64,000 bases of DNA from Lysobacteraceae bacterium (GTDB taxonomy: Bacteria > Pseudomonadota > Gammaproteobacteria > Xanthomonadales > Xanthomonadaceae), in assembly GCA_003241895.1 (NCBI GenBank), contig QBLY01000014.1, positions 1 through 64,000 of the forward strand. The letters run 5' to 3'. The translations under genes and the position numbers were made by a program. The notes below the pieces were generated by a model that saw only the letters and a list, made by a program, of their open reading frames with translations, had not been told where the DNA came from and searched no databases. Positions 29,568 to 50,373 of this stretch are shown piece after piece; position 1 is the first letter of the stretch; every line of letters starts with the position of its first letter.

Positions 29568-29971
29568 GTACGAAGCGCAAGCCGGCGGACGCCCGCCGCA
29601 AAGACCTGGAACTGGCGATCTCACGTATCCAGCGTGGGCGAGCCCACACCAAGGCAACTGCGGTCAACATCAGTACGGTGGCGGCCGAGGCGGGCGTGAC
29701 GCCTGCGCTTATCCACAACCATTACCCGAGCATTGCCGAGAGAATCCGTGAGCTCCAAGCGCGCTCCAGTCGCGCTCAGCGCGATGCAAAGCATGACGAA
29801 CTAAAAGCGACGAAAGAGAGGAACCGTGCACTGCGGGAGGAACTTGACGCCCTGCGTGACCAGGTTGCCAAGCTTGCTTCAATCAACGAGGTTCTGGTGG
29901 TAGAGAATCGCATTCTCAAGGCCAAACGAGGCGATCCGAAGGTCACCGATATCGGCATCCAGCGGAGCTGA
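29564..29971 (+). CDS. TnpC-like accessory protein with HTH and coiled coil (DUF6262-like)
   Basis: The 135-residue protein starts at a TTG overlapping the previous TGA, with GAGGAG nine bases upstream. Residues about 28-60 (VNISTVAAEAGVTPALIHNHY) resemble the helix-turn-helix of TetR proteins; residues about 65-118 form a charged coiled coil. This architecture and its place as last gene after three recombinases match TnpC of Tn554 (125 aa), an accessory factor affecting orientation and efficiency of insertion. It ends convergent with the GIY-YIG gene. Confidence 0.8.
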   Translation: MSTKRKPADARRKDLELAISRIQRGRAHTKATAVNISTVAAEAGVTPALIHNHYPSIAERIRELQARSSRAQRDAKHDELKATKERNRALREELDALRDQVAKLASINEVLVVENRILKAKRGDPKVTDIGIQRS

Positions 29972-29987
29972 ATGCATCTTTGCAGCC

Positions 29988-35984: not shown

Positions 35985-36042
35985 GCGCGCTCGATCCCCC
36001 ATTGTGGCTTAGCGACCATCTTTCTGACGTTCTGTGGGGAGG

Positions 36043-36243
36043 TCATGACTTGTCCTGAGCGTTCTCGGCAATCTGCGCGGCAATCCAGCGATCTAAGTCG
36101 CGACGAGGAAACCGCCAGGTGCCTCCCAGCTTGAAGCCCGGGATCTCCCCCTTTTGGGCGAGCCGATAGACGGTCTTCTTTCCAGCCTTTAGGAAGGCTG
36201 CCACCTCGTCCATCGTGAGAATTTCGCTATCGGGCTGGCTCAT
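36043..36243 (-). CDS. small excisionase/MerR-type helix-turn-helix protein
   Basis: The 66-residue protein is a single HTH_17-type winged helix: ILTMDEVAAFLKAGKKTVYRLAQKGEIPGFKLGGTWRF follows the excisionase-family pattern closely. It is the first gene of the methyltransferase-helicase-GIY-YIG operon, about 58 bases upstream of the methyltransferase start, so it most likely regulates the system. A recombination-directionality role is possible but less likely, because it is far from the recombinase operon and reads the other way. Two direct repeats lie just upstream. Confidence 0.85.
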   Translation of the reverse strand: MSQPDSEILTMDEVAAFLKAGKKTVYRLAQKGEIPGFKLGGTWRFPRRDLDRWIAAQIAENAQDKS

Positions 36244-36609
36244 CTCGGGCGTCTCGCTTGGTTGGGTACGGCCAAGTCTTCCTAGGATTGGCCAAGTTTA
36301 GCCTCACACAGGCCCGGGTTCGCACTTCTGCTCGCCAGCTCAACTCAAACTGTAAGCAGTCTTGTCGGTTGATGACGGCCCGGATCGCATAGGGTCGGGT
36401 GAGCGTCCGGACCGCGGCGCGAGATGGAGCGGTCAAGAGGGCCCGAAGCAGCGGGCTCGGGGGATGACCGGGGAACTGGTCGCTATGAGGGCAGGGCCAG
36501 CCCGCGCAGGCATCGGCCGTTCGTCCGGGACTGTCGGCTGAGAGGTAATTGGGATCCTCACGCCGGGTGACGCTACGACACCCGGTGCGACTCGGAGTCT
36601 CTGGACCTA
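36244..36609. other. intergenic region upstream of the defence operon, no gene seen
   Basis: 366 bases without a convincing gene. The part near 36244-36300 holds two direct repeats and should contain the promoter of the HTH-methyltransferase operon. The remainder is GC-rich with a short inverted repeat (CACCCGGTG near 36578) that may act as the 3' end of the XRE gene transcript. A 69-codon frame at 36227-36436 looks accidental. Confidence 0.5.
36270..36297. repeat. direct repeats, candidate operator of the HTH regulator
   Basis: GGCCAAGT occurs at 36270-36277 and 36290-36297, start to start exactly 20 bases, or about two turns of DNA. The pair lies 27-54 bases upstream of the HTH start codon, where a promoter should be. 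Same-face direct repeats fit a small winged-helix regulator binding next to its own gene. The operator role is inferred. Confidence 0.45.
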
Positions 36610-36870
36610 CTACTGATCGCGACGCCTCGGCAGCAGTGCCAAGATCAGTGCCAGCGCCCTTTCCGGTGGCAGCCCGAGCTTGTCTGCAAGCACGAAGTAC
36701 TCCATGACGTCGAGGCGCCTGGAGCCGCTCTCAACCGCTGATAGGCGCTGCTGCGGCCATCCGAGGGCTTCTGCGAGAGCTACCTGGGTTAGGCCCAGGT
36801 CCTTCCGGATGCGCCGCAAACCGTCGACCAGCTCGCGGTACTCCTTGGCGTAGATGGTCTTCTTGGGCAT
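36610..36870 (-). CDS. XRE-family transcriptional regulator
   Basis: The 86-residue protein is a single Cro/C1-type helix-turn-helix: LRRIRKDLGLTQVALAEALGWPQQRLSAVESGSRRLDVMEYFVLADKLG. It has no obvious effector domain. It is divergent from a 147-residue hypothetical gene, and the shared 116-base region contains a palindrome that may be its operator. The ATG at 36870 follows directly from the HTH spacing. Confidence 0.87.
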   Translation of the reverse strand: MPKKTIYAKEYRELVDGLRRIRKDLGLTQVALAEALGWPQQRLSAVESGSRRLDVMEYFVLADKLGLPPERALALILALLPRRRDQ

Positions 36871-36915
36871 TGCGGTCCGACCCCTGTCTGGGTGGACACG
36901 CTAGGTGATGGCACC

Positions 36916-36938
36916 AAATACATGAAAAACGTGTATTT
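36916..36938. promoter_or_regulatory. palindrome between the XRE gene and its divergent neighbour
   Basis: AAATACA (36916-36922), nine bases, TGTATTT (36932-36938) form a perfect 7-bp inverted repeat in the divergent promoter region. Spacing and position fit a Cro/C1-type dimer site, so autoregulation by the XRE protein is a fair guess. Confidence 0.45.
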
Positions 36939-36986
36939 TCGGTTTACCATCGGGCATCGAAACGAGCCAAACCAGGTCCTTGGCCT

Positions 36987-37430
36987 ATGCCCCTCCTATT
37001 GGTCCATCCAGGCGTGGACCTGACTCTCGAGCTCTATGTGTCTCCGGCGCTGGAGGAGGCTTTGGCCCTCCAATGGGAGCGAGTCCGCAAGCGGACAGTG
37101 CGGGATACGTATGTCAAGGCACTCGAGTATCGACTGCAGAACCTACTCAGCGATTGCCTGGACTGGGACCTCAAGCCGCCCACTGAGGCGCAGATCTCAT
37201 ATGCAACGCTCCTCGGAGCTCGACACGGCGTTTCGGTCCCCTCCGAAGCCCTGAGCTACCGATTCCACATGGCGATGTTCCTGGAGGCGTGGGCGCGGAA
37301 ACCCGCCCCTTCCCCCCAGGTAGGCGGGACGCCGGAAGCCAGCGTCCAAACATCGGCCCCCATGGAGAATTCATTGTTGGACGACAGTGCCCCGCCTGAG
37401 CCCACCAACCCCCTGCGAAAAGGAGCGTAG
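36987..37430 (+). CDS. hypothetical protein, divergent from the XRE gene
   Basis: The 147-residue protein is helical in its first 105 residues (ALQWERVRKRTVRDTYVKALEYRLQNLL), while its tail from about 106 is Pro/Ser-rich and looks disordered. No signal peptide, membrane segment or known motif is visible. Codon use is mixed, with less GC bias than chromosomal neighbours. It may be controlled by the adjacent XRE repressor. I do not recognise it. Confidence 0.6.
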   Translation: MPLLLVHPGVDLTLELYVSPALEEALALQWERVRKRTVRDTYVKALEYRLQNLLSDCLDWDLKPPTEAQISYATLLGARHGVSVPSEALSYRFHMAMFLEAWARKPAPSPQVGGTPEASVQTSAPMENSLLDDSAPPEPTNPLRKGA

Positions 37431-37554
37431 CGAGGCCACGGGCAATTAATTTCCGCGCGACAGCCGCCTCTACCTGACCGAACTTGTGTCGCCGCTGCAT
37501 GCCTGCAGCACAAAATACTTTCCGTGCTAATGCGCTAATGAGGGAATACCCAGA

Positions 37555-38301
37555 ATGGAACTGGATCAACTCATAGAGGAAGCTGTAGCCGATGGCTCCA
37601 AAGAAGCGGCGCTCTTTCACCTGCTGCTTGATGCGACCCTGTACGTTCACGCCCCCAAGAAGCATACGGGGGCGAGACTCTCCTTAGTTCAGTTCAAAAC
37701 ACCTCAAGGCGTAATGGCCATTCCCGTTTTCACGGACCTAAAGAAAGCTGAATTCGCAGGAAGAGGAAACGTACGGATTGTTCCGCTTCACGCCCGGCAA
37801 CTATTCTCGGCGAGCCTAGGCGCAAACATCGTCATCAATCCAAATGACGCTTGGTGCATCCTGTACCCGGAAGAGATTCGAGCATTACTAGAAGGAAAGA
37901 CGCTAGGCAGAAAGCCGGAAGACATCGAAGCAAAGGAAGATCTGCAGCTCAGGCCTGCACAAACTCCGAGCGCGGAGCTCATTAAACTTATCGAGGAATC
38001 GCTAGCTCCCATCGAGACCGCACAGGACGCATGGCTGACAGAGGCAGACGACGACGAGCGACCCTCGAGCACAAGGTATGTGTTGGTGGTGGCCGCCGAA
38101 CGCCCCAGTTACGAACGAATTGCCAGGTCATTGACGCTTGCCATATCAAACTCTGGTAGATCTTTTGAGAAGACCGTGGACATTACCTTCATCGAGCCAG
38201 GCGAGCTCCAACAGGCCTGGCTTGAAGACAACTCCAGCTGTCTTATCTATCGCCGCCTGTGGCTAAAAGCATCCCGCACAGGAGTTTACGGAAATGCGTG
38301 A
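37555..38301 (+). CDS. SseB-family protein
   Basis: The 248-residue protein has an N-terminal SseB-like domain (about 1-115: LFHLLLDATLYVHAP, MAIPVFTDLKKAEFA, VINPNDAWCILYPEEIRALLEG). A linker and a C-terminal SseB_C-like domain (about 150-240: RYVLVVAAERPSYERIARSLTLAI) follow. SseB-type proteins are cytosolic, of unclear function, and often sit in accessory regions. Base composition is clearly more AT-rich than the chromosome, consistent with acquisition. No operon partner is evident. Confidence 0.82.
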   Translation: MELDQLIEEAVADGSKEAALFHLLLDATLYVHAPKKHTGARLSLVQFKTPQGVMAIPVFTDLKKAEFAGRGNVRIVPLHARQLFSASLGANIVINPNDAWCILYPEEIRALLEGKTLGRKPEDIEAKEDLQLRPAQTPSAELIKLIEESLAPIETAQDAWLTEADDDERPSSTRYVLVVAAERPSYERIARSLTLAISNSGRSFEKTVDITFIEPGELQQAWLEDNSSCLIYRRLWLKASRTGVYGNA

Positions 38302-38714
38302 CCAGCGATGCTGGCGCCAACTGAGGCCGCTCATTGTCACTAGTGCCGGCGCCCCCTTGGCTGCGTGTTCCGGCTCACTTGAGCGTCGGTTCCGGTCAAG
38401 GCTGACCCCGCCGCTGGTGTTGACCGCGGCCAAGCCCTGAGAGCCGGCTACTTCCGCTTCCGACCCGAAGCGGACGGTCGAGGTTCGTGTTCGACGGCTA
38501 ATGCGCGGCCTGATCAACCGCCGGTCGAAAGGTAGGCTGGACAGCCCAGACCAGAAGTTCATAGCCTTAGCTCAAGTTCCCTCCGAAACCGGGTAGAACG
38601 CCGGTGGGTGGTGGCTGCTTGCCCAGCCTTCGGAACCCAGTGCGAGTGGCCATGACTTAGACTTAGACTTAGCGTGGGTTCTCCCCGCAGCCCGCCAAGC
38701 ATAGAGAGAGAAGC
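38302..38714. other. intergenic region before the SIR2 gene
   Basis: 413 bases without a convincing gene. It contains the first copy of a hairpin repeat (38453-38474) and three tandem copies of the hexamer GACTTA at 38654-38671, 44 bases upstream of the SIR2 start. The SIR2 promoter must lie here, but I cannot fix its boxes. Confidence 0.45.
38453..38474. repeat. interspersed hairpin repeat, copy A
   Basis: Inverted repeat TCCGCTTC / GAAGCGGA around the loop CGACCC. Its right part, CGACCCGAAGCGG (38461-38473), recurs exactly at 42368-42380 and 43753-43765, each time between gene units of the island. It may be a transcription end signal or the trace of a small repeat element. Confidence 0.6.
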
Positions 38715-41700
38715 ATGCCGCGACTGGGAAACCTCGACTTCGACGATAGTATCCTTGATGCTGTCAAGGACGGCAGACTCGTCGTCTTTGCGGGCGCTGG
38801 CGTTTCGATGGGGCCGCCGTCGAATCTGGACAACTTCTGGAAGCTCGCCGAGAAGATCGCCCGCAACACCGGACTGACACCAGAACTTCCGCTCGACCGG
38901 TTCCTTGGTGTGCTGAAACATCGGGGAGTCAACGTTCACCAGCGCGCAGTGGAACTGCTCTCGCCATCGGGAAGCGCTCCCAATGACCTGCACCGCGATC
39001 TCATCCGCTTGTTCAATTCCGCCGATCGAATCAAGTTGGTCACCACGAACTTCGATCTCCACTTTGAGACGGCGGCGCAGGAAGTCTATGGCGGCCCGCC
39101 AGACGTCTACCGAGCGCCCGCGCTTCCCTTGGGCTACGGATTCCACGGCATCGTGCATGTGCACGGCGCCCTGCCGGACGCGTCCAGCGTCGTACTCACC
39201 GACGCCGATTTTGGCCGGGCGTACCTGACGGAGGGATGGGCCCGCCGCTTCCTGCTGGACGTCTTTCGTACCCATACCGTTCTGTTCGTCGGCTACAGCC
39301 ACGACGACGTCGTCATGAACTACCTAGCCAGGGCGCTGCCGGCCGACGGTTCGGCAGGGCGATACGCACTGACAGAAACTGACGGGAATTGGAATCTGCT
39401 CGGAATCCAACCTATTCGGTTCGTGAAGGGCGAAGGCGCTGAGGCATTTCGAGATCTCTACCAAGGCGTGGCGAAGCTTGCCGAACGGGCTGCGCGTGGA
39501 ACGCTTGACTGGCAGTCACGGATGCTGGAGCTGGTTGGACGGGCTCCCCCAGTAGACCCCGAGTTGGTCGGTGAGATCGAGCAAGCGCTGAGAGACGTTT
39601 CGACTTGCCGCTTGTTCACTGACGTTGCGCGCGATGTCTCATGGCCTAAGTGGATGGACAGCAGGAAGCACTTGGAGGCGTTGTTCGGTTCTGGCGAGCT
39701 TAGCGAGCGGGAAAGTCAATTGGCGTTCTGGCTCGCCAATCATTATGCGATCGAACACTTCGACGAATGTTTCGAGCTCATTGCAGGACACGGCCTCCAG
39801 CTCAATCCCGTGCTGTGGTGTGCCGTGGGTCGAGAGCTTGGGCTGGAGAAGGACAAGCCGATCGAAGCCGCCACGCTGCGACGGTGGATCCTGCTGCTGC
39901 TGGGGAGCGCGCCAGAAAGGGTAGATCGCCACGTGTTCATGTGGCTTGCGGAACGTTGTGAGGCGCTTGGCTTGGTGGGCGACGGGCTGTCACTCTTCTT
40001 GCAGATGTGCGTCCACAGGTTTGAGCTCAAGCGCGGCTACCGTTGGCGGGAAAGCGAAGATGACGAAGAGCATTCTCAGCTTACGGCCGAATGCACACTC
40101 CGAACCGATCACTGGTCATTGAACGAGGTGTACGAGAATCGGATACAGCCCCATCTCGCCGAGCTGGCCCAGCCATTGCTGTCTGGGCTGATCCATCGAT
40201 TCGAGCGCATGCACGCAGACTTGACTGCGTGGTCCGGTGCGCGCGACGAGCGGGACTCGATGAGCTACCGACGATCCGCGATCGAGCCTCACGAGCAGGA
40301 TCGCCACGCCGAGGCGTCGGACGTGCTCATCGATGCCACGCGTGATGCCATTGAGTGGCTTGCGGCAAACCAGCCCGCGCAACTCGACGCGCGGATCGAG
40401 TACCTGTCGAGCTCAAGGCTTCCCTTGCTTCGACGATTGGCAGTGCACGCCGTGGCATCGCACCCTGGCAAGTCGGCGGACGAACGGCTCGCGTGGGTTC
40501 GGGCGCATGTTGGACTGGATTCGCTTGCCGAGTACCATGAGACGCATCGCTTGGCGGCTCTCAATTATCCTGGCGCTACGGACGCCGCGCGTCAGGCATT
40601 TATCGATGCCATCATGGCTGCCCCCGTTGAGGACGCGGATGATCGCTCGGCCGAAGAACGCGCTCAGCGCTTCCAGTTCGATTGGTTGTCGTGGTTGTTG
40701 GCGGCTAAGCCAGACTGTGCGCTCGCAGAGGCCCTACTGACACCTATTCGTGCGCGTTTTCCGCATTGGATCGCCTCTGAGCATCCGGACCTCATGCACT
40801 GGATAGGCTCGGGGGGGTGGGTCGGGTCAAAGAGTCCCTGGTCGACCGAACAATTGGTCGCGCAGCCACCGAGTGAGCAGCTTGCCGCTCTCCTGGAATT
40901 CAGAGGCACCGAATTTGAAGGTCCAAGTCGCGAGGGACTGCTGTCGGCCGTGCGGGATGCAGCCAAGTCGGTCCCCGACTGGGGCTTCCAGCTGGTCGCG
41001 GAGCTGGAGCAGCGGGCGCTTTGGTCATCCGACTTGTGGTCAGCGACGCTGCGGGGATTCCAGGACTCAGAACTGAACAGCACACAATGGCGCCGCCTGC
41101 TCGAAGCGGTCGCCCGCAATGATTTGCATACCGAACATGCACGGGACATCGCCGATATCCTGCTGCGGCTGGTCAAAGATGGCGGCAAGCCGTTCGCGTC
41201 TGAGTTACTGGCGATCGCGAACCCGATCGCAGATCACCTGTGGACCGCGCTGAAACCCGACGACGATTCCGATTTCGACAACGACTGGCTGACGCGGGCC
41301 ATCAACCGGCCAGGTGGTGTGCTGGTCGAGTACTGGCTCGCCGCGCTCTCACTCACGCTGAAGAGCAAGGAGGGCGCGCAATGGGCGATGCCTGTCTATT
41401 ACCGCGGGCGATTTACGGAGGCCATCCACGATCCGACATCGAAAGGAGCGCATGCGCGTTCCCTGTTGGCGAGCCAAGCCGCCTTCCTGTTTCGGCTCGA
41501 CGAAGCGTGGGTGTGGGATCACTTGATACCCCTGTTCCAGCACGCAGATTCGCGGATATTCGCGCAAACTTGGCATGGCTTTCTCGCGTGGGGACGACTT
41601 TATCCGCCACTCGTTGATGCGTTGTTGCCCGCTTTCCTGGCGGCCGTGGCACGAAATCCCTCTGATTTACTGGAACATCGCGATCGACTGATCGAGTTCT

Positions 41701-42224
41701 ATGCGGCCCTGTGTGTCTTCCACGTCGACGATCCGCTGCAACAACTGCTCCCCAACCTCTTCCAGCACGGCCCGGAGGAAGATCGAACCACGTTCGCATC
41801 TAAGATCGAGCACATGCTACGGCAACTGGATCCCCCGGGAATCGTCAAGGTCTGGGAGGGTTGGCTCTCTCGCTACTGGCAGGATCGACTCCAAGGCGTG
41901 CTTGCACCGCTTGCCCCCGGAGAGTGCCGTGAGATGGTCGAGTGGCTTCCCCATCTAGGCGCGCACTTTCCGGTGGGTGTGCAGCTGGCGACTCGCATGC
42001 CGGCACTTACCGCGGAACACAGTCATGTCCTGTTCGAGCTGCGCACCAGCGACCTGGTCACTCGTTTCCAAGAGGCAGCGGCACAGCTTCTGATCTACCT
42101 GGCCGACGGCGTGGCGGGGTACGAACTTGCGTACCTCACTGAAGTGGCGGCGCGACTCGACGCACTGCCGGAGACCAATCGGCGCCGTCTCCAAGAGGCA
42201 TTGGTACATGCGGGCGCTCGTTAA
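38715..42224 (+). CDS. SIR2-domain anti-phage protein (DSR1-like, SIR2 plus long C-terminal region)
   Basis: The 1169-residue protein has an N-terminal SIR2 domain: VVFAGAGVS at 23-31, TTNFD at 110-114 with the expected catalytic Asn112, GIVHVHG at 145-151 with the likely catalytic His150, and FVGYSHDD at 191-198. The remaining 900 residues are helical repeats that could act as sensor; the architecture resembles SIR2-DUF4020 proteins (defence-associated sirtuin 1). Such proteins deplete NAD+ after phage infection and stop growth. It is a single-gene unit with an AGAGAG ribosome site, flanked by hairpin repeats. Confidence 0.85.
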   Translation: MPRLGNLDFDDSILDAVKDGRLVVFAGAGVSMGPPSNLDNFWKLAEKIARNTGLTPELPLDRFLGVLKHRGVNVHQRAVELLSPSGSAPNDLHRDLIRLFNSADRIKLVTTNFDLHFETAAQEVYGGPPDVYRAPALPLGYGFHGIVHVHGALPDASSVVLTDADFGRAYLTEGWARRFLLDVFRTHTVLFVGYSHDDVVMNYLARALPADGSAGRYALTETDGNWNLLGIQPIRFVKGEGAEAFRDLYQGVAKLAERAARGTLDWQSRMLELVGRAPPVDPELVGEIEQALRDVSTCRLFTDVARDVSWPKWMDSRKHLEALFGSGELSERESQLAFWLANHYAIEHFDECFELIAGHGLQLNPVLWCAVGRELGLEKDKPIEAATLRRWILLLLGSAPERVDRHVFMWLAERCEALGLVGDGLSLFLQMCVHRFELKRGYRWRESEDDEEHSQLTAECTLRTDHWSLNEVYENRIQPHLAELAQPLLSGLIHRFERMHADLTAWSGARDERDSMSYRRSAIEPHEQDRHAEASDVLIDATRDAIEWLAANQPAQLDARIEYLSSSRLPLLRRLAVHAVASHPGKSADERLAWVRAHVGLDSLAEYHETHRLAALNYPGATDAARQAFIDAIMAAPVEDADDRSAEERAQRFQFDWLSWLLAAKPDCALAEALLTPIRARFPHWIASEHPDLMHWIGSGGWVGSKSPWSTEQLVAQPPSEQLAALLEFRGTEFEGPSREGLLSAVRDAAKSVPDWGFQLVAELEQRALWSSDLWSATLRGFQDSELNSTQWRRLLEAVARNDLHTEHARDIADILLRLVKDGGKPFASELLAIANPIADHLWTALKPDDDSDFDNDWLTRAINRPGGVLVEYWLAALSLTLKSKEGAQWAMPVYYRGRFTEAIHDPTSKGAHARSLLASQAAFLFRLDEAWVWDHLIPLFQHADSRIFAQTWHGFLAWGRLYPPLVDALLPAFLAAVARNPSDLLEHRDRLIEFYAALCVFHVDDPLQQLLPNLFQHGPEEDRTTFASKIEHMLRQLDPPGIVKVWEGWLSRYWQDRLQGVLAPLAPGECREMVEWLPHLGAHFPVGVQLATRMPALTAEHSHVLFELRTSDLVTRFQEAAAQLLIYLADGVAGYELAYLTEVAARLDALPETNRRRLQEALVHAGAR

Positions 42225-42360
42225 CGCACTCGCGGGTCCGCCCGGCCGGAGACTTCAGGCGTGCGATTGGCTCCGGCCAAGCACTGTCGGGCGATGCCCT
42301 GATTGACCTTAGTCGCCTGCTGTCTTACCGGTCACCGGTTCTGGCCGACAGCCGACCAGG

Positions 42361-42380
42361 CCGCTACCGACCCGAAGCGG
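42361..42380. repeat. interspersed hairpin repeat, copy B
   Basis: CCGCT and AGCGG arms flank the same CGACCC core, with one mismatch in the stem. It lies between the SIR2 gene and the Mrr-like gene. The 13-base CGACCCGAAGCGG at 42368-42380 is identical to copies A and C. Confidence 0.6.
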
Positions 42381-42501
42381 ACGACGGGCTGTCCCCCGTC
42401 AACACACATTTTCCAGGAGGTCGATGCAGCGTCTAGGTGCTTCCTGTCGCTGTGTGCGCTAGCATTTCGTCACACAACGATTTGAAAATAATGGAGTTGC
42501 C

Positions 42502-43677
42502 ATGGCGGTGACGCGAACCATCGGACCTCTGCACTTCGAGGATCTCGAACCAAAACGGTTCGAAGACCTTACGCGGCAGCTTATCTACGACTTTAAAGAC
42601 TGGCAGCGACTCGAGGCTACCGGCAGAGCCGGCAGTGACGACGGTTTCGACGCAAGAGGATACGAAGTCAGACCCCCTGAAGACAGTGCGGAGGATCGAG
42701 ATCCGATCGATCCGAGCGGTACAGGCGAACATCGGCTGTGGCTAGTTCAATGCAAGCGAGAGCGAACAATTGGCCCGACGAAGCTTGCCGGCTACTTCTC
42801 GGACACTAAGCTTGGCATCGGTGAGAAGCTGCACGGAATAATATTCGTCGCTGCGTGCGACTTTTCCAAGAGGGCGCGAGACGCGTTTCGTCGAAGTTGT
42901 GAGGAAGCCGGGATCGAAGAATGGTACTTGTGGGGGAAGGCAGAACTGGAGGACCTGCTTTTTCAACCGCGACACGACGCACTGCTATTTGCGTACTTCG
43001 GCATATCCCTCACTATCAGGCGACGCAGCGCCAAAGCGGTTATTTCCTCTCGATTGGCTATTAAGCGAAGAGCGAACAACGTTCTTAGCCAGAGACAAAA
43101 TGCAGATTTGCTCATCATTGACTCTAGCGAACAAGACTATCCTTACTCGACAAACCGAAGTGCATCGAAGCCGAATTGGTTTCTCGCTCAGTACCATGGA
43201 TTGCACCCTCATGGGCTCCGCTTTGTCGTTCAAAGACACTTCGCCTATCTGTCAGATGACAAAAGCGAATGGGACGCGGCGCTTGCTCAAAACGATGCCG
43301 GTCCTCGCCGAGACCCTTGGTCCGAGGATGAGAATGACCATCAGCTTCGTTCCGAGACCCACGATTACTGGAGCGGACTGCCGAAGCAGAACCAAGCATG
43401 GTTCGAAGTTGTTGGGGTGATCCCTTTCGAAAGAATCTTGGGTATCGACGAAATGGGCGACAACATCGTTCAGGAGCCCCATGTCTACGCGGAGTTTAGC
43501 GGCAAACATGGCCCATTCATGGGGCACATGATCTCAGTCAAGGTCGGAAATCATTCGTCGAGAAGCGAAATTCAACCGAAGAGTCTGACGGATCGTAGAG
43601 TTAGTAAGTTCCCAGCCGAGTTGCGGGCGCCCGTAAAATTGGCGCCATACGGTCCGATCCGATTCTTTCGAAGTTAG
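42502..43677 (+). CDS. Mrr-like restriction endonuclease-fold protein
   Basis: The 391-residue protein has an N-terminal PD-(D/E)XK domain of the Mrr type: Glu21 in FEDLTRQLIY, GSDDGFD with Asp50, and LVQCKRE with Gln83 and Lys85. Mrr-like enzymes cut methylated or otherwise marked foreign DNA. The C-terminal 200 residues are unrecognised and may hold a reader or partner-binding domain. AT-richer composition and position between hairpin repeats suggest a separately acquired unit. A role as type IV restriction or as effector of a nearby system is inferred. Confidence 0.75.
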   Translation: MAVTRTIGPLHFEDLEPKRFEDLTRQLIYDFKDWQRLEATGRAGSDDGFDARGYEVRPPEDSAEDRDPIDPSGTGEHRLWLVQCKRERTIGPTKLAGYFSDTKLGIGEKLHGIIFVAACDFSKRARDAFRRSCEEAGIEEWYLWGKAELEDLLFQPRHDALLFAYFGISLTIRRRSAKAVISSRLAIKRRANNVLSQRQNADLLIIDSSEQDYPYSTNRSASKPNWFLAQYHGLHPHGLRFVVQRHFAYLSDDKSEWDAALAQNDAGPRRDPWSEDENDHQLRSETHDYWSGLPKQNQAWFEVVGVIPFERILGIDEMGDNIVQEPHVYAEFSGKHGPFMGHMISVKVGNHSSRSEIQPKSLTDRRVSKFPAELRAPVKLAPYGPIRFFRS

Positions 43678-43711
43678 TTCGGGAACGATTAGCGGCAAAA
43701 GATTCGGATGT

Positions 43712-43724
43712 CCGCTCCTGGCCG
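43712..43724. repeat. 13-bp repeat left of the integron
   Basis: CCGCTCCTGGCCG here recurs exactly at 46495-46507. In both places the sequence continues into a short hairpin (GCTCC...GGAGC). The two copies lie in direct orientation and bracket the intI gene and the whole cassette array. Confidence 0.55.
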
Positions 43725-43745
43725 CGAGGAGCCAATTGCGACAGG

Positions 43746-43765
43746 CGCTTCTCGACCCGAAGCGG
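43746..43765. repeat. interspersed hairpin repeat, copy C
   Basis: CGCTTC and GAAGCG arms around TCGACCC, downstream of the Mrr-like gene and of intI, whose 3' ends converge here. The 13-base core at 43753-43765 matches copies A and B. It could terminate both transcripts. Confidence 0.6.
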
Positions 43766-43809
43766 CCGGTCGCCCGAGCTCGCCGAATCGGCTGAGCTCG
43801 GGCAATTGA

Positions 43810-44805
43810 TCAAAGCCGATCGAGTGGGCTGACGGTATCGCGCACCGCTTGATGGACGTGGGTATAGATCATGGTGGTCTTTAGACTGCGATGACCCAGC
43901 AGGAGCTGGATCGTACGGATGTCAGTCCCGTCGGCCAGCAAATGTGTAGCAAACGAGTGGCGAAGCGTATGCACGCTGGCATGCTTGAGGATCTTTGCTC
44001 TTTCCAACGCAGCTCGGAATGCCCGTTGCACCGTGCTCTCCGAAGCATGCCAGCGTAGCCAGCGTGCGGTCTCCGGGCAGGCGCGTTGGGTCTTGGATGG
44101 GAACACAAACTGCCAGGCGAGGCTGCGGGACGCATTCGGGTACTTTCGGTGCAGCGCGCCAGGAAGAGGAGCGTGCCCACGGCCGCGGGAAAGGTCCTCT
44201 TTGTGGAGGGCCGCGACGCGGAGCAAGTGTTGTTGCAGGGAGTCACGCAACCGCACCGGCAGGACAGTGGTCCGATCCTTGGCGCCTTTGCCACTTCGAA
44301 CGTGGACGGTTCCGGCCTGCAGGTCCAGGTCCTTCATGCGCAGGGTCATGGCCTCGGTCACGCGCAGCCCGGCGCCATAAAGGAGCTCAGCCATTAGGCG
44401 CGGTGTCCCCGACATGTAGGCGAGCACATCACGGACCTCGCCAACCGTCAGAACCGTGGGCAGTCGGGCTGGGCGTTGGACGCGCCTGAGGCCTTCCAAC
44501 TGGCCGACTTCGAGTTCCAGCACATCCCGGTACAGAAAAAGCACGGCGTTGAGCGCTTGGGACTGTGTAGACGCGGCTACTTTCTGGCCGCTCGCCAAGT
44601 AGTTGATAAAGGGCGTTATCCCGAGGGCGCCGACGCTGACCGGATGTTGTTTGGCGTGAAAGTAGATGTAGCGCCGAATCCAGTAGCAGTAGGCTTCTTC
44701 GGTCCGCCGGCTCAGGTGGCGTCGCCGGCAAACCTGGGAAACGCGATCCATGAGACGCAGGGGCGGGGCGGCATCGGGGGTGTTACCCCATTTTGGTGGC
44801 TCCAA
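43810..44805 (-). CDS. intI: integron integrase
   Basis: Tyrosine recombinase that joins attI and attC sites to capture or shuffle cassettes. Catalytic motifs: LLYGAGLRVTEAM (Arg), HTLRHSFATHLL and LGHRSLKTTMIYTHV (His and Tyr). The integron-specific insertion is present between the two boxes (ALHRKYPNASRSLAWQFVFP), which separates IntI from XerC/D. Homology to IntI1 begins just before an internal ATG at 44751, so I keep the longer TTG start at 44805 (331 aa); the ATG would give 313. It is divergent from the cassette array, as in all classical integrons. Confidence 0.95.
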   Translation of the reverse strand: MEPPKWGNTPDAAPPLRLMDRVSQVCRRRHLSRRTEEAYCYWIRRYIYFHAKQHPVSVGALGITPFINYLASGQKVAASTQSQALNAVLFLYRDVLELEVGQLEGLRRVQRPARLPTVLTVGEVRDVLAYMSGTPRLMAELLYGAGLRVTEAMTLRMKDLDLQAGTVHVRSGKGAKDRTTVLPVRLRDSLQQHLLRVAALHKEDLSRGRGHAPLPGALHRKYPNASRSLAWQFVFPSKTQRACPETARWLRWHASESTVQRAFRAALERAKILKHASVHTLRHSFATHLLADGTDIRTIQLLLGHRSLKTTMIYTHVHQAVRDTVSPLDRL

Positions 44806-44873
44806 TCGGTTGGTGGGAAAAGCCGCACCATAGCTGAATTGGGCGGAAGACTGCTGTCCGGGGTTGCTTCGGA

Positions 44874-44902
44874 TTGTTTAACGGACAAGCACAGCCTAAA
44901 CT
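44874..44902 (+). promoter_or_regulatory. candidate cassette promoter (Pc-like)
   Basis: TTGTTT (44874-44879), 17 bases, TAAACT (44897-44902) point toward the cassettes. The -10 is identical to the strong class 1 Pc variant as I remember it, and the spacing is ideal; the -35 differs at three positions. It lies between intI and attI and could drive cassettes 1-4. Confidence 0.5.
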
Positions 44903-44918
44903 CACGGAGAATCATCGG

Positions 44919-44992
44919 GTTGCGGGCTAATAGCCGCAACGCCGGTCGGATGTATAACCGGACGTCAACGTCCGTATATTCGGTAGTTAGGC
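44919..44992 (+). other. candidate attI site
   Basis: The region ends with the core GTTAGGC (44986-44992), matching GTTRRRY; the G/TT step at 44986/44987 is the expected crossover where cassette 1 begins. Upstream are two inverted-repeat structures (GTTGCGG...CCGCAAC at 44919-44940, and GGACGT/ACGTCC near 44960-44973) that could guide IntI binding. The core is seen; the outer limits are estimated. Confidence 0.7.
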
Positions 44993-45010
44993 CACTTACG
45001 GAGATCACGG

Positions 45011-45382
45011 ATGTCTGACACCGCAACCCGATTCCTCAGCGCTGTCCCGGCGCTTGCTTCACTGGACATCCAGCGGTCCGTCGATTTCTTCTGCTCGGTG
45101 CTCGGCTTCTCACAAGTGCACGCCGCCCAAGGCGAGTACGGCATCGTGTCTAGTGGCCCCGTCGAGATCCACTTCTGGGCTTGCTCGGAGCCGCATATTG
45201 CGGCTAATACATCCTGCCGGGTGCAAGTCGAGGGTATTGAGGCTCTACATGCGGTTTGCCAAGCCGCCGGGGTGGTGCATCCTGCCGCACCGCTCGGCGC
45301 TCGGCCTTGGGGCTCCACAGAGTTCGGCGCGCTGGACCCGGATAAGAACCTGGTCACATTCTTTCAGCGAAACGTGGCCTAA
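45011..45382 (+). CDS. cassette 1: VOC-fold (glyoxalase/bleomycin-resistance-like) protein
   Basis: The 123-residue protein has the paired beta-alpha-beta pattern of the VOC superfamily: VPALASLDIQRSVDFFCSVLGF at the start and WGSTEFGALDPDKNLVTFFQ at the end, as in bleomycin-binding dimers. Such proteins can sequester drugs or act as metal enzymes; no resistance can be claimed. The cassette spans 44987-45430, and the stop codon lies inside the R'' core of its attC, a common cassette layout. ATG start, first in the array. Confidence 0.88.
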   Translation: MSDTATRFLSAVPALASLDIQRSVDFFCSVLGFSQVHAAQGEYGIVSSGPVEIHFWACSEPHIAANTSCRVQVEGIEALHAVCQAAGVVHPAAPLGARPWGSTEFGALDPDKNLVTFFQRNVA

Positions 45383-45436
45383 CAATTCATTCAACCCGAT
45401 GCCGCTTCGCGGCACGGGTTAATTCAGGCGTTAGGC
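45377..45436 (+). repeat. attC site 1 (cassette recombination site)
   Basis: Starts with GCCTAAC (R'') and ends with GCGTTAGGC (R'), enclosing imperfectly paired arms (AATTCATTCAACCC / GGGTTAATTCAG) around a GCCGCTTCGCGGC hairpin. At about 60 bases it has textbook attC structure with the crossover at G45430/T45431. Confidence 0.93.
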
Positions 45437-45437
45437 C

Positions 45438-45674
45438 GTGAAGATCGAAGGCGTCGAGTACAGGATGCAGGCCGCTTCGGATGTCAGCCGAGACGGAATC
45501 GGTATTGAGATCTATCGCGTCACGGAAGCCGGGGAGGAATTCTTGCTTGAGATATTCCGAAGCGACAGAAATCAGACCTATCTCCTTCATTCGGGTCAGA
45601 ACCCTATCCCGCTATCTGTTCTAGAGCGTGTTGTACCTACTGCGCGTAAAGAACTCGGACCATTCGTGGCCTAA
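45438..45674 (+). CDS. cassette 2: hypothetical protein
   Basis: The 78-residue protein starts at GTG seven bases into its cassette (45431-45719) and stops inside the next attC. The sequence alternates beta-like segments (VEYRMQAAS, IGIEIYRV, FLLEIFRSD, TYLLHSG) and ends in a helix. It looks like a small alpha/beta domain. No family is recognised, as is typical of many cassette proteins. Whether GTG is used cannot be settled; an internal ATG at residue 11 would leave a very short protein. Confidence 0.68.
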   Translation: MKIEGVEYRMQAASDVSRDGIGIEIYRVTEAGEEFLLEIFRSDRNQTYLLHSGQNPIPLSVLERVVPTARKELGPFVA

Positions 45675-45725
45675 CCAATCATTCAAGCCGACGCCTTCGG
45701 CGCGGCTTAACTCAAGGTGTTAGGG
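45669..45725 (+). repeat. attC site 2
   Basis: GCCTAAC ... GTGTTAGGG with paired arms CATTCAAGCCG / CGGCTTAACTCA around a CGCCTTCGGCG hairpin, about 57 bases long. The last core base departs from GTTRRRY (G for Y), but the crossover G45719/T45720 is intact and the next R'' (CCCTAAC) complements it, as expected. Confidence 0.9.
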
Positions 45726-45730
45726 GGCAC

Positions 45731-46060
45731 ATGAAAAGTATTTCGGCGGCCGCGGTCCTCCTGCTTCTATCTGGCTGCGCACATTGGTTCGGCCCTGCGG
45801 ATGGTTTCTTCGATGCAGTTGGCTCCACGCCAGCCAATAAACCTTGCCAGCTGTCGGTGATTCCTGTCGGCTCCAACCACAGCCCGAGAGAACGGACTGT
45901 CACAGGTGCCTTTCGGGAGAGCATCATCGTCCAACCCTCCCGCAAGGGGCATCGCATCACCTTGACCTGCGACAGTACGGTTGTTTCAACACGCACGTTC
46001 AAGTACGGTCGCGACGTGAACATTGGCGGGGAGCTTTTGGTCATCGGTAGTGCCCCCTAA
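45731..46060 (+). CDS. cassette 3: putative lipoprotein
   Basis: The 109-residue protein begins with a lipoprotein signal ending in LLSGC (Cys near residue 16), followed by a small beta-rich domain (QLSVIPVGS, RTVTGAFRESIIVQP, HRITLTCDSTVVSTRTFKYG). The mature protein should sit in the outer membrane or periplasm. The ATG has a GGGGG ribosome site that comes from the cassette junction itself. The stop lies in the next attC core. Function unknown; exported proteins are common among cassette products. Confidence 0.8.
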   Translation: MKSISAAAVLLLLSGCAHWFGPADGFFDAVGSTPANKPCQLSVIPVGSNHSPRERTVTGAFRESIIVQPSRKGHRITLTCDSTVVSTRTFKYGRDVNIGGELLVIGSAP

Positions 46061-46166
46061 CAATTCGTTCAAGCCGAACTTGCTTCGTTACAGCAAAAGC
46101 GTGGCAGAAAAAGCTTGCCACGCTTTGGCCTCCACTACGCAAGTCGGCTTAACTCAGGCGTTACCA
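46055..46166 (+). repeat. attC site 3 (long form)
   Basis: CCCTAAC at the left, GCGTTACCA at the right, paired arms TTCAAGCCGAACTTGC / GCAAGTCGGCTTAA, and in the middle an 11-bp perfect stem AAAGCGTGGCA / TGCCACGCTTT. At about 112 bases it is twice as long as the other two. Crossover G46160/T46161. Confidence 0.9.
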
Positions 46167-46203
46167 GCGGTAGCATTGGACTCTTGAGTGTAGGAGATCG
46201 GCC

Positions 46204-46440
46204 ATGGCCCACGACCTAGAGAAGATTGATGATGCGGCGCTTGCTTTGTTGGCTGCACTAACCTTCGAAGCTGGGCGTGCTTGGAAAGGCCATGATTTCG
46301 GCGTGCTTAATCGGCTGTTTCAGAAGGGCTACATCCAGGACCCGATGGGCAAGGCGAAGACAGTTTGGCTAACGCCGGAAGGAATTCGGCACGGGGAAGA
46401 AGTGGCAGACCGGCTGTTCGGTTCTTCGAGGTCAGACTAG
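46204..46440 (+). CDS. cassette 4: DUF6429-like small protein
   Basis: The 78-residue protein matches my memory of the DUF6429 family: DLEKIDDAALALLAALTFEAGRAWKG followed by FGVLNRLFQKGYIQDPMGKAKTVWLTPEG, resembling a small winged helix. The ATG is preceded by AGGAG. It is the last cassette-like gene; its cassette begins at 46161, but no clear attC follows the stop. Function unknown; the family is common in integrons. Confidence 0.75.
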   Translation: MAHDLEKIDDAALALLAALTFEAGRAWKGHDFGVLNRLFQKGYIQDPMGKAKTVWLTPEGIRHGEEVADRLFGSSRSD

Positions 46441-46494
46441 GAAGTTCTATCGAATTTTTGATCTGCCGGGTCCAACCCGACAAGCGTTGAACGA

Positions 46495-46507
46495 CCGCTC
46501 CTGGCCG
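46495..46507. repeat. 13-bp repeat right of the integron
   Basis: Exact second copy of CCGCTCCTGGCCG (first at 43712-43724), again continuing into a GCTCC...GGAGC hairpin. It lies 55 bases after the last cassette gene, just after a degenerate GTTGAAC core (46485-46491). Confidence 0.55.
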
Positions 46508-46657
46508 ACTGGAGCCGGTCAACACCAGCGGGCCGGTCAACCTAAACCGGAATCGGTGGTCAACTCAACCAGAACACGCAGTTGGTCCTGGCTGCGTCCG
46601 GCCGTTCGCGGCCCGGGTTCGCAACCGCTATCAACCGAAGGTGACGCGGGAGTGGCG

Positions 46658-47290
46658 TTAACCGAGATTCCTCTGCGCATCCTCGTACCGCGAGTAGACG
46701 GTTGGGACGCGACCTTCAAAAGTCATTCGTCCAACGGTTTTCCGGTCGGTCCAGTACTCGGCGGTCAGCGAATCCGGTTTGAACTTTTGGCCATGCGTTC
46801 CGATTTGCGCAGCGCCAACGTGGCGCTCGCTGCGAACGCCGCGAAGCTCGACACCGGGCGTATTGGAGTAGACCACCGACACGTTGAAGCGATTTCCGCA
46901 GGCCTTCGGCTCGATGGCGTGGGCGAGCAGGCAGGATTCGGACTCGGGTGTCATCAGTTGAATCTGCAGTTTGCTCAAACTCTGCACGATACCCGCATAG
47001 GCCGTAACGGGCGGGGCATTCTCCCCGGTTTCTGGGTTGACCCAGTCGGATTGAATCGTCACCTTCCAAGTGCCACGAAGGTCGGGGCGGTCGAATAGCC
47101 AACCCTGAAACACGCGCAGCCGCCAGAGAAGATGCTCCATGAACAGCGCGACGACCACGAGGACGCCGACAACTGTGGTGAATGGGGCAAGGTGCTCCCA
47201 GGAGAGCTTCGTTCCTTGCAGCCAAAGCATCGCAGCCCATGCGGAAGTGGCGACGGCGAGCGCGGCGGTAATCTGAAGGCGCGTGAACAT
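46658..47290 (-). CDS. cap15: CBASS effector, Cap15-like two-TM beta-barrel protein
   Basis: The 210-residue protein has two membrane segments (about 5-25 and 33-58) followed by a beta-strand-rich domain (about 70-210, starting LRGTWKVTIQSDW). This is the SMODS-associated 2TM-beta architecture: Cap15 binds the CD-NTase product through the barrel, oligomerises and disrupts the inner membrane, killing infected cells. It begins three bases after the stop of the CD-NTase gene. The symbol rests on architecture and context rather than a search. Confidence 0.82.
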   Translation of the reverse strand: MFTRLQITAALAVATSAWAAMLWLQGTKLSWEHLAPFTTVVGVLVVVALFMEHLLWRLRVFQGWLFDRPDLRGTWKVTIQSDWVNPETGENAPPVTAYAGIVQSLSKLQIQLMTPESESCLLAHAIEPKACGNRFNVSVVYSNTPGVELRGVRSERHVGAAQIGTHGQKFKPDSLTAEYWTDRKTVGRMTFEGRVPTVYSRYEDAQRNLG

Positions 47291-47293
47291 GGC

Positions 47294-48208
47294 TCAAATA
47301 ATCCCTATGTATTTGCGGGCGCGGTCTACGAAAGCTTTGAATTGCGTTCGCTTCGCCTCGTTACCCTTCAACAAATATTTCAATTCGCTAACTTCGCCCC
47401 ATTCCCCGCAGAGCGTCATGCTCGACAGTTGGGTGGATAGGTGATTCAGCACGGCGGATACGTCCTCGTACCATGTGGCGTGCCTGAAACAACTATTGGG
47501 AGCGTTCCATACGAGGCATTCGACGTTAAATCCCTTCAGCGGCTTGGTTTCGGCGATGCCCTCATCGTCCATGATGTTGCGCAGTTTCTTAATGATGCGA
47601 ACAACGCCACGGTAAGCCCGCCCCGTTTCGTTGTTCTTGCCGTTGCCGTTTTCGTAATGCTGGTTCGGCCATTCGCGCGTGTCGTAGAGACGTTCAGGCC
47701 AGTTGATAATCCTCCCACCGCTGTCAGGCTGAAGCGCAGTGCCGCAGATGAAAGTTCCAGCGGTGCTGTACCTTCGATGCACGAGTAGCGGAACTACATC
47801 AGCGTCAACGCGGTAGGTGTTTTCGTGAATGTCGAATGCCTTGTCACCGCGAGTTACGTGTGCGGTTCCGAAGTAGTTAATTAGCGCCTTACCAATATCG
47901 TTCTTGAAATCGGCATAGCTGTAGGTCGCGTTTAAGTTGCCGAAGTCTGAGTACCCCTTCCCTTCTGGGTAATCAGCGAGGAATACGTTGCCGGTGTAGA
48001 GCACGCCGATGTCCACGTCGCTGTCTTGCCGCACGTTCACCCGGTTGCGGTAAGAGCCCTGAACAAACACCTTGCTCAGTGAAGCTACTTTGTCATCAGC
48101 GGCGAGTGCCTTCTTGATTGCGGTAATCGCGTTCTCGATCTTGTCGGTTTCGGTCTTGCTGGGCGACTGCGCCCACGTGCTAAAACGATCATTCCATGTC
48201 GTGCTCAC
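47294..48208 (-). CDS. CBASS CD-NTase (cGAS/DncV-like nucleotidyltransferase)
   Basis: The 304-residue enzyme has the polymerase-beta-type active site: Gly51-Ser52 in FVQGSYRN, Asp64 and Asp66 in DSDVD, and a third acid Asp137 in VDADVVP. It should make a cyclic oligonucleotide second messenger on phage infection, which activates the membrane effector encoded three bases downstream. No Cap2/Cap3 or HORMA/TRIP13 genes are present, so this is a minimal type I CBASS. The clade and nucleotide product cannot be decided by eye. Confidence 0.88.
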   Translation of the reverse strand: MSTTWNDRFSTWAQSPSKTETDKIENAITAIKKALAADDKVASLSKVFVQGSYRNRVNVRQDSDVDIGVLYTGNVFLADYPEGKGYSDFGNLNATYSYADFKNDIGKALINYFGTAHVTRGDKAFDIHENTYRVDADVVPLLVHRRYSTAGTFICGTALQPDSGGRIINWPERLYDTREWPNQHYENGNGKNNETGRAYRGVVRIIKKLRNIMDDEGIAETKPLKGFNVECLVWNAPNSCFRHATWYEDVSAVLNHLSTQLSSMTLCGEWGEVSELKYLLKGNEAKRTQFKAFVDRARKYIGII

Positions 48209-48293
48209 AAATCCCCCTTTCGTTGGAAGCTCCCCCGGACAATATGGGTTGTGACGGCTATCACGCGTTTTAAGGGGCTGCCCCGGCTTACCC

Positions 48294-48506
48294 CTAAGCC
48301 CGTAACGTCAAGCGCTTGCCAGTGACGACGATCTCGAAGGTCTGGTCATCTATGCGGTTTAGCGCGCCGCTGCCCGAAAGGTGAAACGAGGGCAAGCCTT
48401 CAATGCGGCCTGGTCCACTCAAGTCGCCGGTATTGATGTAGCTACGGCGAATTTGGACGGCGTAGCGGTTTCCCTCGTCGTCGAAGGCGTCGAACATGTC
48501 CGTCAT
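48294..48506 (-). CDS. small hypothetical protein upstream of CBASS
   Basis: The 70-residue protein has an ATG start with GGAGA at good spacing. The sequence suggests a small beta-rich domain (GNRYAVQIRRSYI, FHLSGSGALNRID, FEIVVTGKRLTL). It lies 85 bases upstream of the CD-NTase gene in the same direction, so co-transcription is possible, but no CBASS component I know looks like it. Function unknown. Confidence 0.55.
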   Translation of the reverse strand: MTDMFDAFDDEGNRYAVQIRRSYINTGDLSGPGRIEGLPSFHLSGSGALNRIDDQTFEIVVTGKRLTLRA

Positions 48507-48851
48507 GGTGATTTCTCCGATGGGCCAGTGCTTAGCGTCGCAGAACTTTGTCTCGGACGCTGCGACTGCTCAGGGTGCGAGTCGGGCAGGGCCGCCGGGT
48601 CCACAGAACAGGTCGACGATGCGTCCTAGAGGTCGTAGCGCCGTGTAGCGGAGCCTACAGGTCGAATACGGGTGGTGCCGGACTGCGCAAGACAAAAGGA
48701 CTAGACCGCGAAGCCTAACTCCTTGTTTTTACGGATGCCGGAGATGGGGCTCAAACGACGCCCCCCCGGTTGTGAGTAGCGCTCCGTTGGTGCATTGTCG
48801 GCACTGATGGTAAATCTGGAAGGCAGCAAGTAAGGATAGCGAGGACGTCCC
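48507..48851. other. intergenic region, no gene seen
   Basis: 345 bases between two divergent genes (a 70-aa protein to the left, a 161-aa protein to the right). It must contain their promoters. I see no repeat or gene; a GC-rich stem near 48741-48765 vaguely resembles a tRNA T-arm but lacks the conserved TTC loop. Confidence 0.4.
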
Positions 48852-49337
48852 ATGTTTGGATTCTTTGAGCGACGCAAAGCAATCAAGGATGCGAGAGCAA
48901 GGATAGGGGTCGAACTTCATCGTCAGCTCAAAGCAGCAATTTCCCAGGATGAGCGCCTCACTGAAAAGAACTTGAGTTCAGCTTTTACCGTTGGCTATAT
49001 CTATTGGTTTGTTCGAATGGGCTTTAGTCTTCAAGGGATCGACGGCGGGGAAGTTGTTGATGAACAGCTCAAGTTGGTATGCGACGGTGTAATGCCAAGC
49101 GGGAAGCTGCACGAAATTTTTCAGCGTCAATTGGCAGCGCTTGAAACTGCACAGGGGATGAAGGATCAGACATCGCCAATGGGCCTTGGCGAGATTTTGC
49201 CTGCAGACCTAACGAAGCTTTTTGAGGCTGGCGCAGAGGCTGGCTTGTCAGACGCGGCTGCACTTTCCGCGAATCCAAGTAACTTCAAACATTACCTGGT
49301 TGGCGAGAAACTGCACTACATTACCGTAGCCAAGTAG
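48852..49337 (+). CDS. hypothetical protein, 161 aa
   Basis: Mostly helical protein with a basic start (MFGFFERRKAIKDARARIG) and a central hydrophobic stretch (AFTVGYIYWFVRMGF, about 44-58) that could pack in a core or touch the membrane. The C-terminal half is acidic. Base composition is lower in GC than the chromosome, supporting island membership. No known motif, so no function is offered. Confidence 0.62.
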   Translation: MFGFFERRKAIKDARARIGVELHRQLKAAISQDERLTEKNLSSAFTVGYIYWFVRMGFSLQGIDGGEVVDEQLKLVCDGVMPSGKLHEIFQRQLAALETAQGMKDQTSPMGLGEILPADLTKLFEAGAEAGLSDAAALSANPSNFKHYLVGEKLHYITVAK

Positions 49338-49513
49338 CTTGAACAGATTTTCATCTGCTATTAAATGCTTGATCAGCTGAGCCCAGCGCTACCGCTTGTT
49401 CCACAAGGATGATCGTGGCTTCGGGCGTGACGAGTTAGCCTAGAGGTCCGCTGAAGGGTCATTACACTCGCCAGTTGTCCGTCGCCCCTACACCCACGAG
49501 TCTGGAGGCAAAT

Positions 49514-50074
49514 GTGAGCGAACGTTTCCCGGAGTTCCTCGTCAATGCAAATGGCCAAGCGCCCAGAAACCTTAAGGACGCCATTCGCCTCGTCGGGACA
49601 GCGTCAGCAGGATTTCGAGCCAGTTGGGGAGAGGGCCTTAAAGAAGACGCACTCGAGACAAGCCAAGAAGCATTCAAAGATCTTGATTACATTCAGAATG
49701 AAATACTTCGCCAGCGCGACTTTAGGAAGACCGATGTTGGCTGGCTCCAATCGCCCTTTAAACTGGCGCTAATGGCCCACGTGGGACAGATAGTAGATCC
49801 GGTTTCTGACGGCGATGTGCTGGCGTTTAATCTATTGCCGCAAGGCGCTGGCGCCTTACCCTCGAATCCAGCGCCATCGCCATTGTCGCTCGAAGAATCT
49901 TTCAACAAGCTGAAGCACAGGTCGATATTCGCGCTGAACTTTGCGTTGCCTCCGGCCGGCGGGCACCTTCTGTACGCTCTAACCCCAGCAAGCATGGGGC
50001 GTCTGGCAACAGTCTGTGAGGTAGACATAGCTACCCTCCTTGGAGCATGCCGCAAAGTAGTACCGCTCATTTGA
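49514..50074 (+). CDS. hypothetical protein near the right end of the island
   Basis: The 186-residue protein starts at the GTG at 49514, which has GGAGG six bases upstream; an in-frame TTG at 49475 would add 13 residues without a ribosome site. The N-terminal part is helical (QEAFKDLDYIQNEILRQRDF) and the middle is Pro/Ser-rich. It carries no recognised motif. It is the last gene before the right junction, 299 bases away; that gap shows no gene and should include recombinase-binding sites. Confidence 0.6.
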   Translation: MSERFPEFLVNANGQAPRNLKDAIRLVGTASAGFRASWGEGLKEDALETSQEAFKDLDYIQNEILRQRDFRKTDVGWLQSPFKLALMAHVGQIVDPVSDGDVLAFNLLPQGAGALPSNPAPSPLSLEESFNKLKHRSIFALNFALPPAGGHLLYALTPASMGRLATVCEVDIATLLGACRKVVPLI

Positions 50075-50373
50075 TGGCCAACAGCCCCACCAATTCTCGC
50101 GTCGCGGCGCCGCCTAACTCAGCGCTCCCAGCCTTAGGCGGACCTCAGCAACTCGACTCGTTTGGTTAGCTTCGGGAGCAGTTGCCAAAATTGCTCATCC
50201 TCTTGGCGCCAAGGATTGGTCAACGCCTCGATCGGGAATCATCTCGGTCTGACGTGGGGGTCATAGTCGAGCCCCACTCTCACCGCCATAGTCCCCGAAA
50301 ATTGTTACTTCCGCCAAACATTTGATTTGGCTGAAAAAGGCGGTAGTTAACAGTTACGAGGCACCCGGAACGC

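Follow-up and report, generated by a model that had tools for sequence, protein, structure and literature searches.

Can an integron, the platform that collects gene cassettes, be itself part of the cargo of a mobile genomic island? The question is raised by a stretch of 64,000 nucleotides (the window; positions 1 to 64,000 of contig QBLY01000014.1, assembly GCA_003241895.1), where an integron lies within a 26.0-kb insertion that splits the gene comM. Most of what is known of mobile integrons concerns a few clinical classes carried by transposons and plasmids. The reading that we favor, and consider probable, is that a complete integron of a second lineage is here the cargo of an island resembling the GInts (genomic islands with three integrases), i.e., one bearing the recombination genes ginABCD, and that this island splits the comM gene of an Arenimonas. 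The original prediction for this locus had been framed around Xanthomonas. That framing did not hold: the host is an Arenimonas (Lysobacteraceae), whose draft genome amounts to 3.10 Mb (53 contigs), and a resident-type integron is still present elsewhere in the same genome.

Judged from its sequence, the integron is confirmed as real, having an intact integrase (IntI), an attI site, three attC sites and four open reading frames (ORFs):

43810..44805, minus strand: intI, integron integrase of a non-resident lineage (TIGR02249, residues and trees)
44948..44992, plus strand: attI region with GTTAGGC at its end (from 20 aligned intI upstream regions)
45011..45382, plus strand: ORF of cassette 1, glyoxalase/bleomycin-resistance superfamily (PF00903; NCBIfam bleomycin-binding models below cut-off)
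45377..45436, plus strand: attC1 (covariance model, 85.5 bits, E 9.7e-21)
45438..45674, plus strand: ORF of cassette 2, 78 amino acids, no family
45669..45725, plus strand: attC2 (covariance model, 66.7 bits, E 1.6e-15)
45731..46060, plus strand: ORF of cassette 3, 109 amino acids, no family, lipoprotein-like start by eye
46055..46166, plus strand: attC3, long form (covariance model, 52.9 bits, E 1e-11)
46204..46440, plus strand: fourth ORF, DUF6429 (PF20008), without attC

The product of intI, which starts at a TTG codon, scored 379.8 bits against TIGR02249 (cut-off 265). When it was aligned with IntI1, IntI3 and the other IntI of the same genome, the catalytic residues R148, K173, H279, R282, H305 and Y314 were invariant and the IntI-specific stretch (residues ~200-235) was free of gaps; score and alignment together bear out the family-specific insertion that had been predicted. 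A W-G pair is encoded in the N-terminus read from the TTG (44757-44805), 5' of the first ATG, and was kept in all eight aligned members of the clade to which this IntI belongs. The identity was 45% to IntI1 and 47% to IntI3, and in both of the trees described below the window IntI stood apart from them, indicating that it belongs neither to class 1 nor to class 3 (classes 2, 4 and 5 fell outside the comparison). Among the best 5000 plasmid records every IntI match was less than 60% identical to it, and no IntI relative was confirmed in viral contigs.

The predicted attI core GTTAGGC was found at 44986-44992. Across 20 aligned intI upstream regions, that of the window included, a TAGTTAG-type core was present in 12, the motif TATAACC in 11 and a CGGAC/GTCCG inverted repeat also in 11, with the inverted repeat followed by the core in seven; the upstream regions of loci L129 and L134 had neither core, TATAACC nor inverted repeat. 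For the attC sites we used a covariance model of 32 sites from related arrays, which included attC1 and attC2 of the window and left attC3 out. Over the 64-kb window at E ≤10 the model found attC1 to attC3 and, besides them, a weak echo of attC1 on the opposite strand, confirming the three well-formed sites of the original prediction. The pair cells were paired in 94.4% of cases over the 32 sites, against 84.6% in shuffles and 29-42% when slid, and 43 cells had changed on both sides against 11.6 in shuffles, a pairing statistic that is favored by sites partly picked by motif and by a structure taken from one of the 32. The start of cassette 3 is complementary to its own R'' over 13 of 13 nucleotides, which is what a unit that had entered as a circle should show. 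The four cassette genes that had been predicted are present as ORFs, the last of them without a recognizable attC: the covariance model found none there, and the only trace is a core-like remnant, GTCCAAC...GTTGAAC, at 46470-46492. The array is adjoined by a Cap15/2TM effector and the cyclase of a CBASS (cyclic oligonucleotide-based anti-phage signaling system), and the class 1 3' conserved segment is absent, as had been foreseen. The cassette proteins had no match at the other IntI loci and arrays compared, and a search of Rfam over positions 28000-54000 (E ≤1) gave no match.

Is this integron one of those resident in the family? Two integron integrases over the cut-off were found in the host genome, that of the window and another at C31:743-1684, which adjoins bioC, bioH, bioF and bioB; the two are 46% identical. 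The genome also has at least 15 attC matches, some of which cluster at the right end of the contig to which the window belongs (C5:112-118 kb); judging by its orientation, this cluster may be the distal portion of the resident array. The site attC2 is 96% identical to C5:116479-116535, as recent exchange would give. The draft genome of A. terrae (G003) has 109 attC matches, many near contig ends, so that its assembly seems to break in cassette arrays; four ORFs chosen among the neighbors of its resident IntI matched no family.

In the family, 233 of 395 genomes (host included) have an IntI match at E ≤1e-60, and an IntI at least 69% identical to that of the window was found in nine of the 395, at 10 places. 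Eight of these nine carry a further IntI match. One genome (G211) has two integrons of the window lineage (L079 and L080) far apart, plus a resident-type IntI. The scan of named genomes covered the best 80 of 338 relatives, and these came from A. terrae, Dyella, Rhodanobacter, Thermomonas and Pseudoxanthomonas, followed by Thiobacillus, Solimonas and others. The nearest relatives, 69-87% identical, belong to integrons scattered over Arenimonas, Thermomonas, Pseudoxanthomonas, Dyella and Rhodanobacter, the 87% value being that of A. terrae. Two trees, one quick (138 rows) and one careful (33 chosen rows), placed the window IntI with these relatives and separated it from the IntIs resident in Arenimonas and in other Lysobacteraceae; IntI1 and IntI3 fell on the resident side, and in the careful tree the split from the resident lineage was supported by 100/100. 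Forcing it together with eight resident Arenimonas IntIs cost 231 log-likelihood units (p 1.1e-7 in the approximately unbiased (AU) test), this grouping having come from the earlier note and having been tested after the quick tree had been seen.

The second part of the question is what carries the integron. The insertion and the recombination genes at its left end are as follows:

23336..24373, plus strand: 5' part of comM (YifB family), cut after ...GCGATGA (TIGR00368 positions 2-345; colinear with the unbroken comM of relative G019)
24374..50373: the 26.0-kb island in comM, both ends meeting comM at ATGA (BLAST against G019 comM; junction in relatives; GC 0.589)
24839..25993, plus strand: ginA-like tyrosine recombinase, 384 amino acids (60-61% identical to the first gene of two P. 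aeruginosa plasmid modules; PF00589)
25975..27687, plus strand: ginB-like protein, 570 amino acids (56-59% to the plasmid modules)
27684..29567, plus strand: ginC-like integrase, 627 amino acids (53-55% to the plasmid modules; weak PF00589)
29564..29971, plus strand: ginD/tetR-like small protein, 135 amino acids (63-65% to the plasmid modules)
50374..50862, plus strand: 3' part of comM (TIGR00368 positions 345-499)

The comM junction was continuous in the eight relatives inspected, and an unbroken comM (open frame of at least 510 amino acids over the match) was found in 21 of the 26 other genomes of the genus; there is therefore no integron in comM in these relatives. In the remaining five, comM was fragmentary or interrupted (G008, G009, G018 and G023) or gave no match (G010). 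In two of them, G009 (L121, L123) and G018 (L122, L125), comM lies in two pieces on two contigs, perhaps reflecting other insertions or assembly breaks. The original prediction had left room for a grouping of this IntI with an integron resident at the same locus in relatives; no such grouping appeared, the AU test rejecting it and comM being unbroken in those 21 genomes.

The four abutting genes at the left end of the island have the same order as modules on two Pseudomonas aeruginosa plasmids, to which they are 53-65% identical, and both of these modules adjoin a Y-family polymerase or umuC gene. The GinA-like protein keeps the R..H.R..H..Y motif, and the DNA between the target gene and the first recombinase shares stretches with both plasmid modules, as seen by eye. 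Matches to the ginC-like gene occur in 178 plasmid records, and in 112 of these the match spans most of the gene; it was found in none of 148 other relatives, as for a recent arrival, and in one other of 369 genomes of the class, at 37% identity. In GInts, which carry ginABCD, all four gin genes are needed for excision and integration (PMC5385486). The module described here agrees with theirs in gene order and is similar in sizes, besides its identity to the plasmid modules, the gin operons of PMC5385486 having been compared by description only; a cargo of about 20 kb (the GInt range is 2.5-70 kb) and an empty site in relatives agree as well. Two other assignments were tried. For the gamma-mobile-trio (GMT), the four recombination proteins had no GMT match in NCBIfam at E ≤0.001, and the sole one in the window was IntI, far below the GMT cut-off; a Tn554-like transposon was dropped once the GInt papers fitted gene order and sizes.

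The original prediction is thus right as to position, the integron lying inside an insert that splits comM and has recombinase genes at one end; that this insert moves we infer from the anatomy of the locus and from experiments on other GInts. The products of the four gin-like genes would insert the entire 26 kb at comM and release it as a circle, while IntI would capture, excise and reorder cassettes at its own attI and attC sites. The island integron shares its kind of attC site with the other arrays of the genome, so cassettes could pass between the resident and the island integrons and then leave with the island. The island would bring defense genes together with the integron, and the loss of comM may lower the uptake of homologous DNA. 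In Acinetobacter, removal of the island AbaR reportedly raised transformability, as a paper title has it.

Several observations weigh against this reading. GInts have imperfect direct repeats of 10-17 nucleotides at their ends (PMC5385486); none were found at the ends of the island, which have only ATGA in common and resembled each other no better than 25 random places did. An AT-rich 3' end is weakly developed (GC 0.535 in the last 200 nucleotides, 0.589 in the island). Simple patterns revealed no sigma-70-like promoter in 44700-45100, where the host may use another consensus, and no LexA-like box near attI. None of the 80 named IntI loci had a match to ginB, ginC or ginD in its flanks, which extended over 10 kb at most and in many cases less. 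Around the orthologous integron of A. terrae, the 40 kb examined hold no other gene of the island. It follows that the pairing of integron and gin-type island is a single case.

This last point bears on an alternative that we regard as rather unlikely, in which the integron would have arrived independently of the gin island, by homologous recombination, transformation or the palindromes that flank it, and the two would not be one travelling unit. Besides the A. terrae integron that stands without the island, it could account for two related repeats on either side of the integron:

43699..43733, plus strand: palindromic repeat, intI side
46482..46516, plus strand: related palindromic repeat, array side

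The strict palindromic motif has five matches in the genome, two of which are these flanking copies, and a 116-nucleotide relative of the flanking repeat stands both beside the A. terrae intI and at 38360-38475 of the window. When 15 intI-side flanks were compared, this 116-nucleotide repeat was all that the flank of the window shared with A. terrae. The right flank of the A. terrae integron had no match in five genomes, a search without positive control that shows nothing. However, among the named genes there is no transposase beside the repeats, which are short and patchy and have partial matches elsewhere; and even had the integron arrived by itself, an island that excises would still take it along.

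We think it unlikely that island and integron are by now immobile remains. The missing end repeats, the last ORF without attC, a type IIG cargo gene in two ORFs and an inner stop in the IntI of a clade member (G324) would all be in line with decay, but intI and the four gin-like frames are open, the motifs of IntI and GinA are kept and attC2 hardly differs from a site of another array. That this is the resident chromosomal integron of the family, beside which the island merely landed, is very improbable: resident-type integrons are common (the 233 of 395 genomes with an IntI match), but that of the host sits at C31 beside bioC/H/F/B, the AU test rejects the grouping and comM is unbroken in relatives.

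Beyond the single locus, the favored reading of the integron as cargo of a GInt-like island could be extended to the whole IntI clade. We put forward only tentatively, as possible though on balance doubtful, that this clade is a travelling platform of Xanthomonadales and their neighbors, i.e., a second integron that lives beside the resident one (eight of the nine family genomes having a further IntI match), has the attC type of the residents in common with them and could board gin islands together with defense genes. One capture system, IntI, would then take up genes and be nested in another, GinABCD, that handles entire islands; both would be placed in comM, the loss of which may lower the uptake of DNA able to delete the island. 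Some members of the clade (L077, L078 and L079) have long arrays of uniform attC sites, like chromosomal integrons, and in the 15 flanks compared the long matches were confined to one family or genus (L132-L149, L135-L136 and G211y-L137). Among these, Rhodanobacter sp. L36 (L135) and Dyella sp. S184 (L136) have intI-side flanks 78% identical over 1.8 kb and IntIs in different branches, as though one platform had replaced the other at a single site. A mobilizable plasmid of Candidatus Tenderia electrophaga (L093, CP013100.1) encodes an IntI 54% identical to that of the window, on the same side of the trees.

How does this island compare with known systems? The integron-like elements in rulB of Pseudomonas have recombination genes coding for 385, 525, 535 and 138 amino acids (PMC4542609), sizes similar to those in the island. 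Going by the published descriptions, GInts and rulB elements share with the island a set of four identically ordered recombination genes at one end, variable cargo, a protein gene as target and relatives with the empty site; the island differs in that its target is comM, end repeats were not found and its cargo holds a true integron (intI, attI and attC). The rulB elements are called integron-like, although they have no intI/attI/attC structure according to their authors (PMC4542609). In Acinetobacter baumannii, class 1 integrons are present on the AbaR0/3 islands, which lie in comM (PMC7142300). They also split comM and hold an integron; theirs, as described, is of class 1, has resistance genes and belongs to a transposon backbone with inverted repeats, whereas the window has another IntI lineage, gin-type recombinases and defense cargo. 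The 22.6-kb island PAGI-97B of Pseudomonas aeruginosa contains an integron and a type I restriction system, and a XerC/D recombinase is encoded at the 5' border (PMC8373256). It resembles our case as an island with a XerC/D-type recombinase, an integron and restriction genes, and differs in that the integron is reported to be of class 1 and Tn402 type and to have tni genes of its own, the insertion being at the PrrF locus. In Shewanella, chromosomal-type integrases common to several genera were found on mobile elements (PMC9229058), in contrast to this island on plasmids flanked by other mobile elements and not on gin-type islands, as far as that account goes. The Xanthomonas integron is mostly fixed by ilvD (PMC12444791); it is the resident platform of the same family and the counterpart of the C31 integron, while the window IntI is of another lineage and the resident-type IntI of the host lies beside bio genes.

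By these accounts, an integron in a comM island and an integron on a XerC/D-type island with restriction genes are already precedented in clinical bacteria. No report of an integron on a GInt was found among the open-licence PMC papers listed, which is weak evidence of absence, and PAGI-97B may be such a precedent. What is new is that another IntI lineage, a gin-type island, defense genes as cargo and a separate integron of the resident type occur together, in an environmental bacterium. The collector of genes may thus be mobile itself, which would be a further route by which integron platforms leave their fixed chromosomal place together with anti-phage genes, and the host would offer a non-clinical system for testing cassette exchange between a resident and a travelling integron.

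The integron is placed among the defense genes of the island:

33216..36002, minus strand: MmeI-like type IIG restriction enzyme-methyltransferase, two ORFs (PADLOC REase_MTase_IIG; Pfam MmeI domains)
38715..42224, plus strand: Dsr1-like SIR2 defense protein (PADLOC Dsr1 4e-65; SIR2_2; NCBIfam Dsr1 below cut-off)
42502..43677, plus strand: Mrr-like nuclease (PF04471, 21.6 bits, cut-off 21)
46658..48208, minus strand: CBASS pair, Cap15/2TM effector (46658-47290) and cyclase (47294-48208)

The two type IIG ORFs match parts 10-702 and 717-910 of one PADLOC model. The palindromic repeats are intergenic, and outside the two sides of the integron they occur once more in the island and in a few other places of the genome; L089 (C44:145725) belongs to the same family of repeats. 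Near the right end of the island, a 199-amino-acid protein of unknown function (49475-50074) matched phrog_29562 (8e-53).

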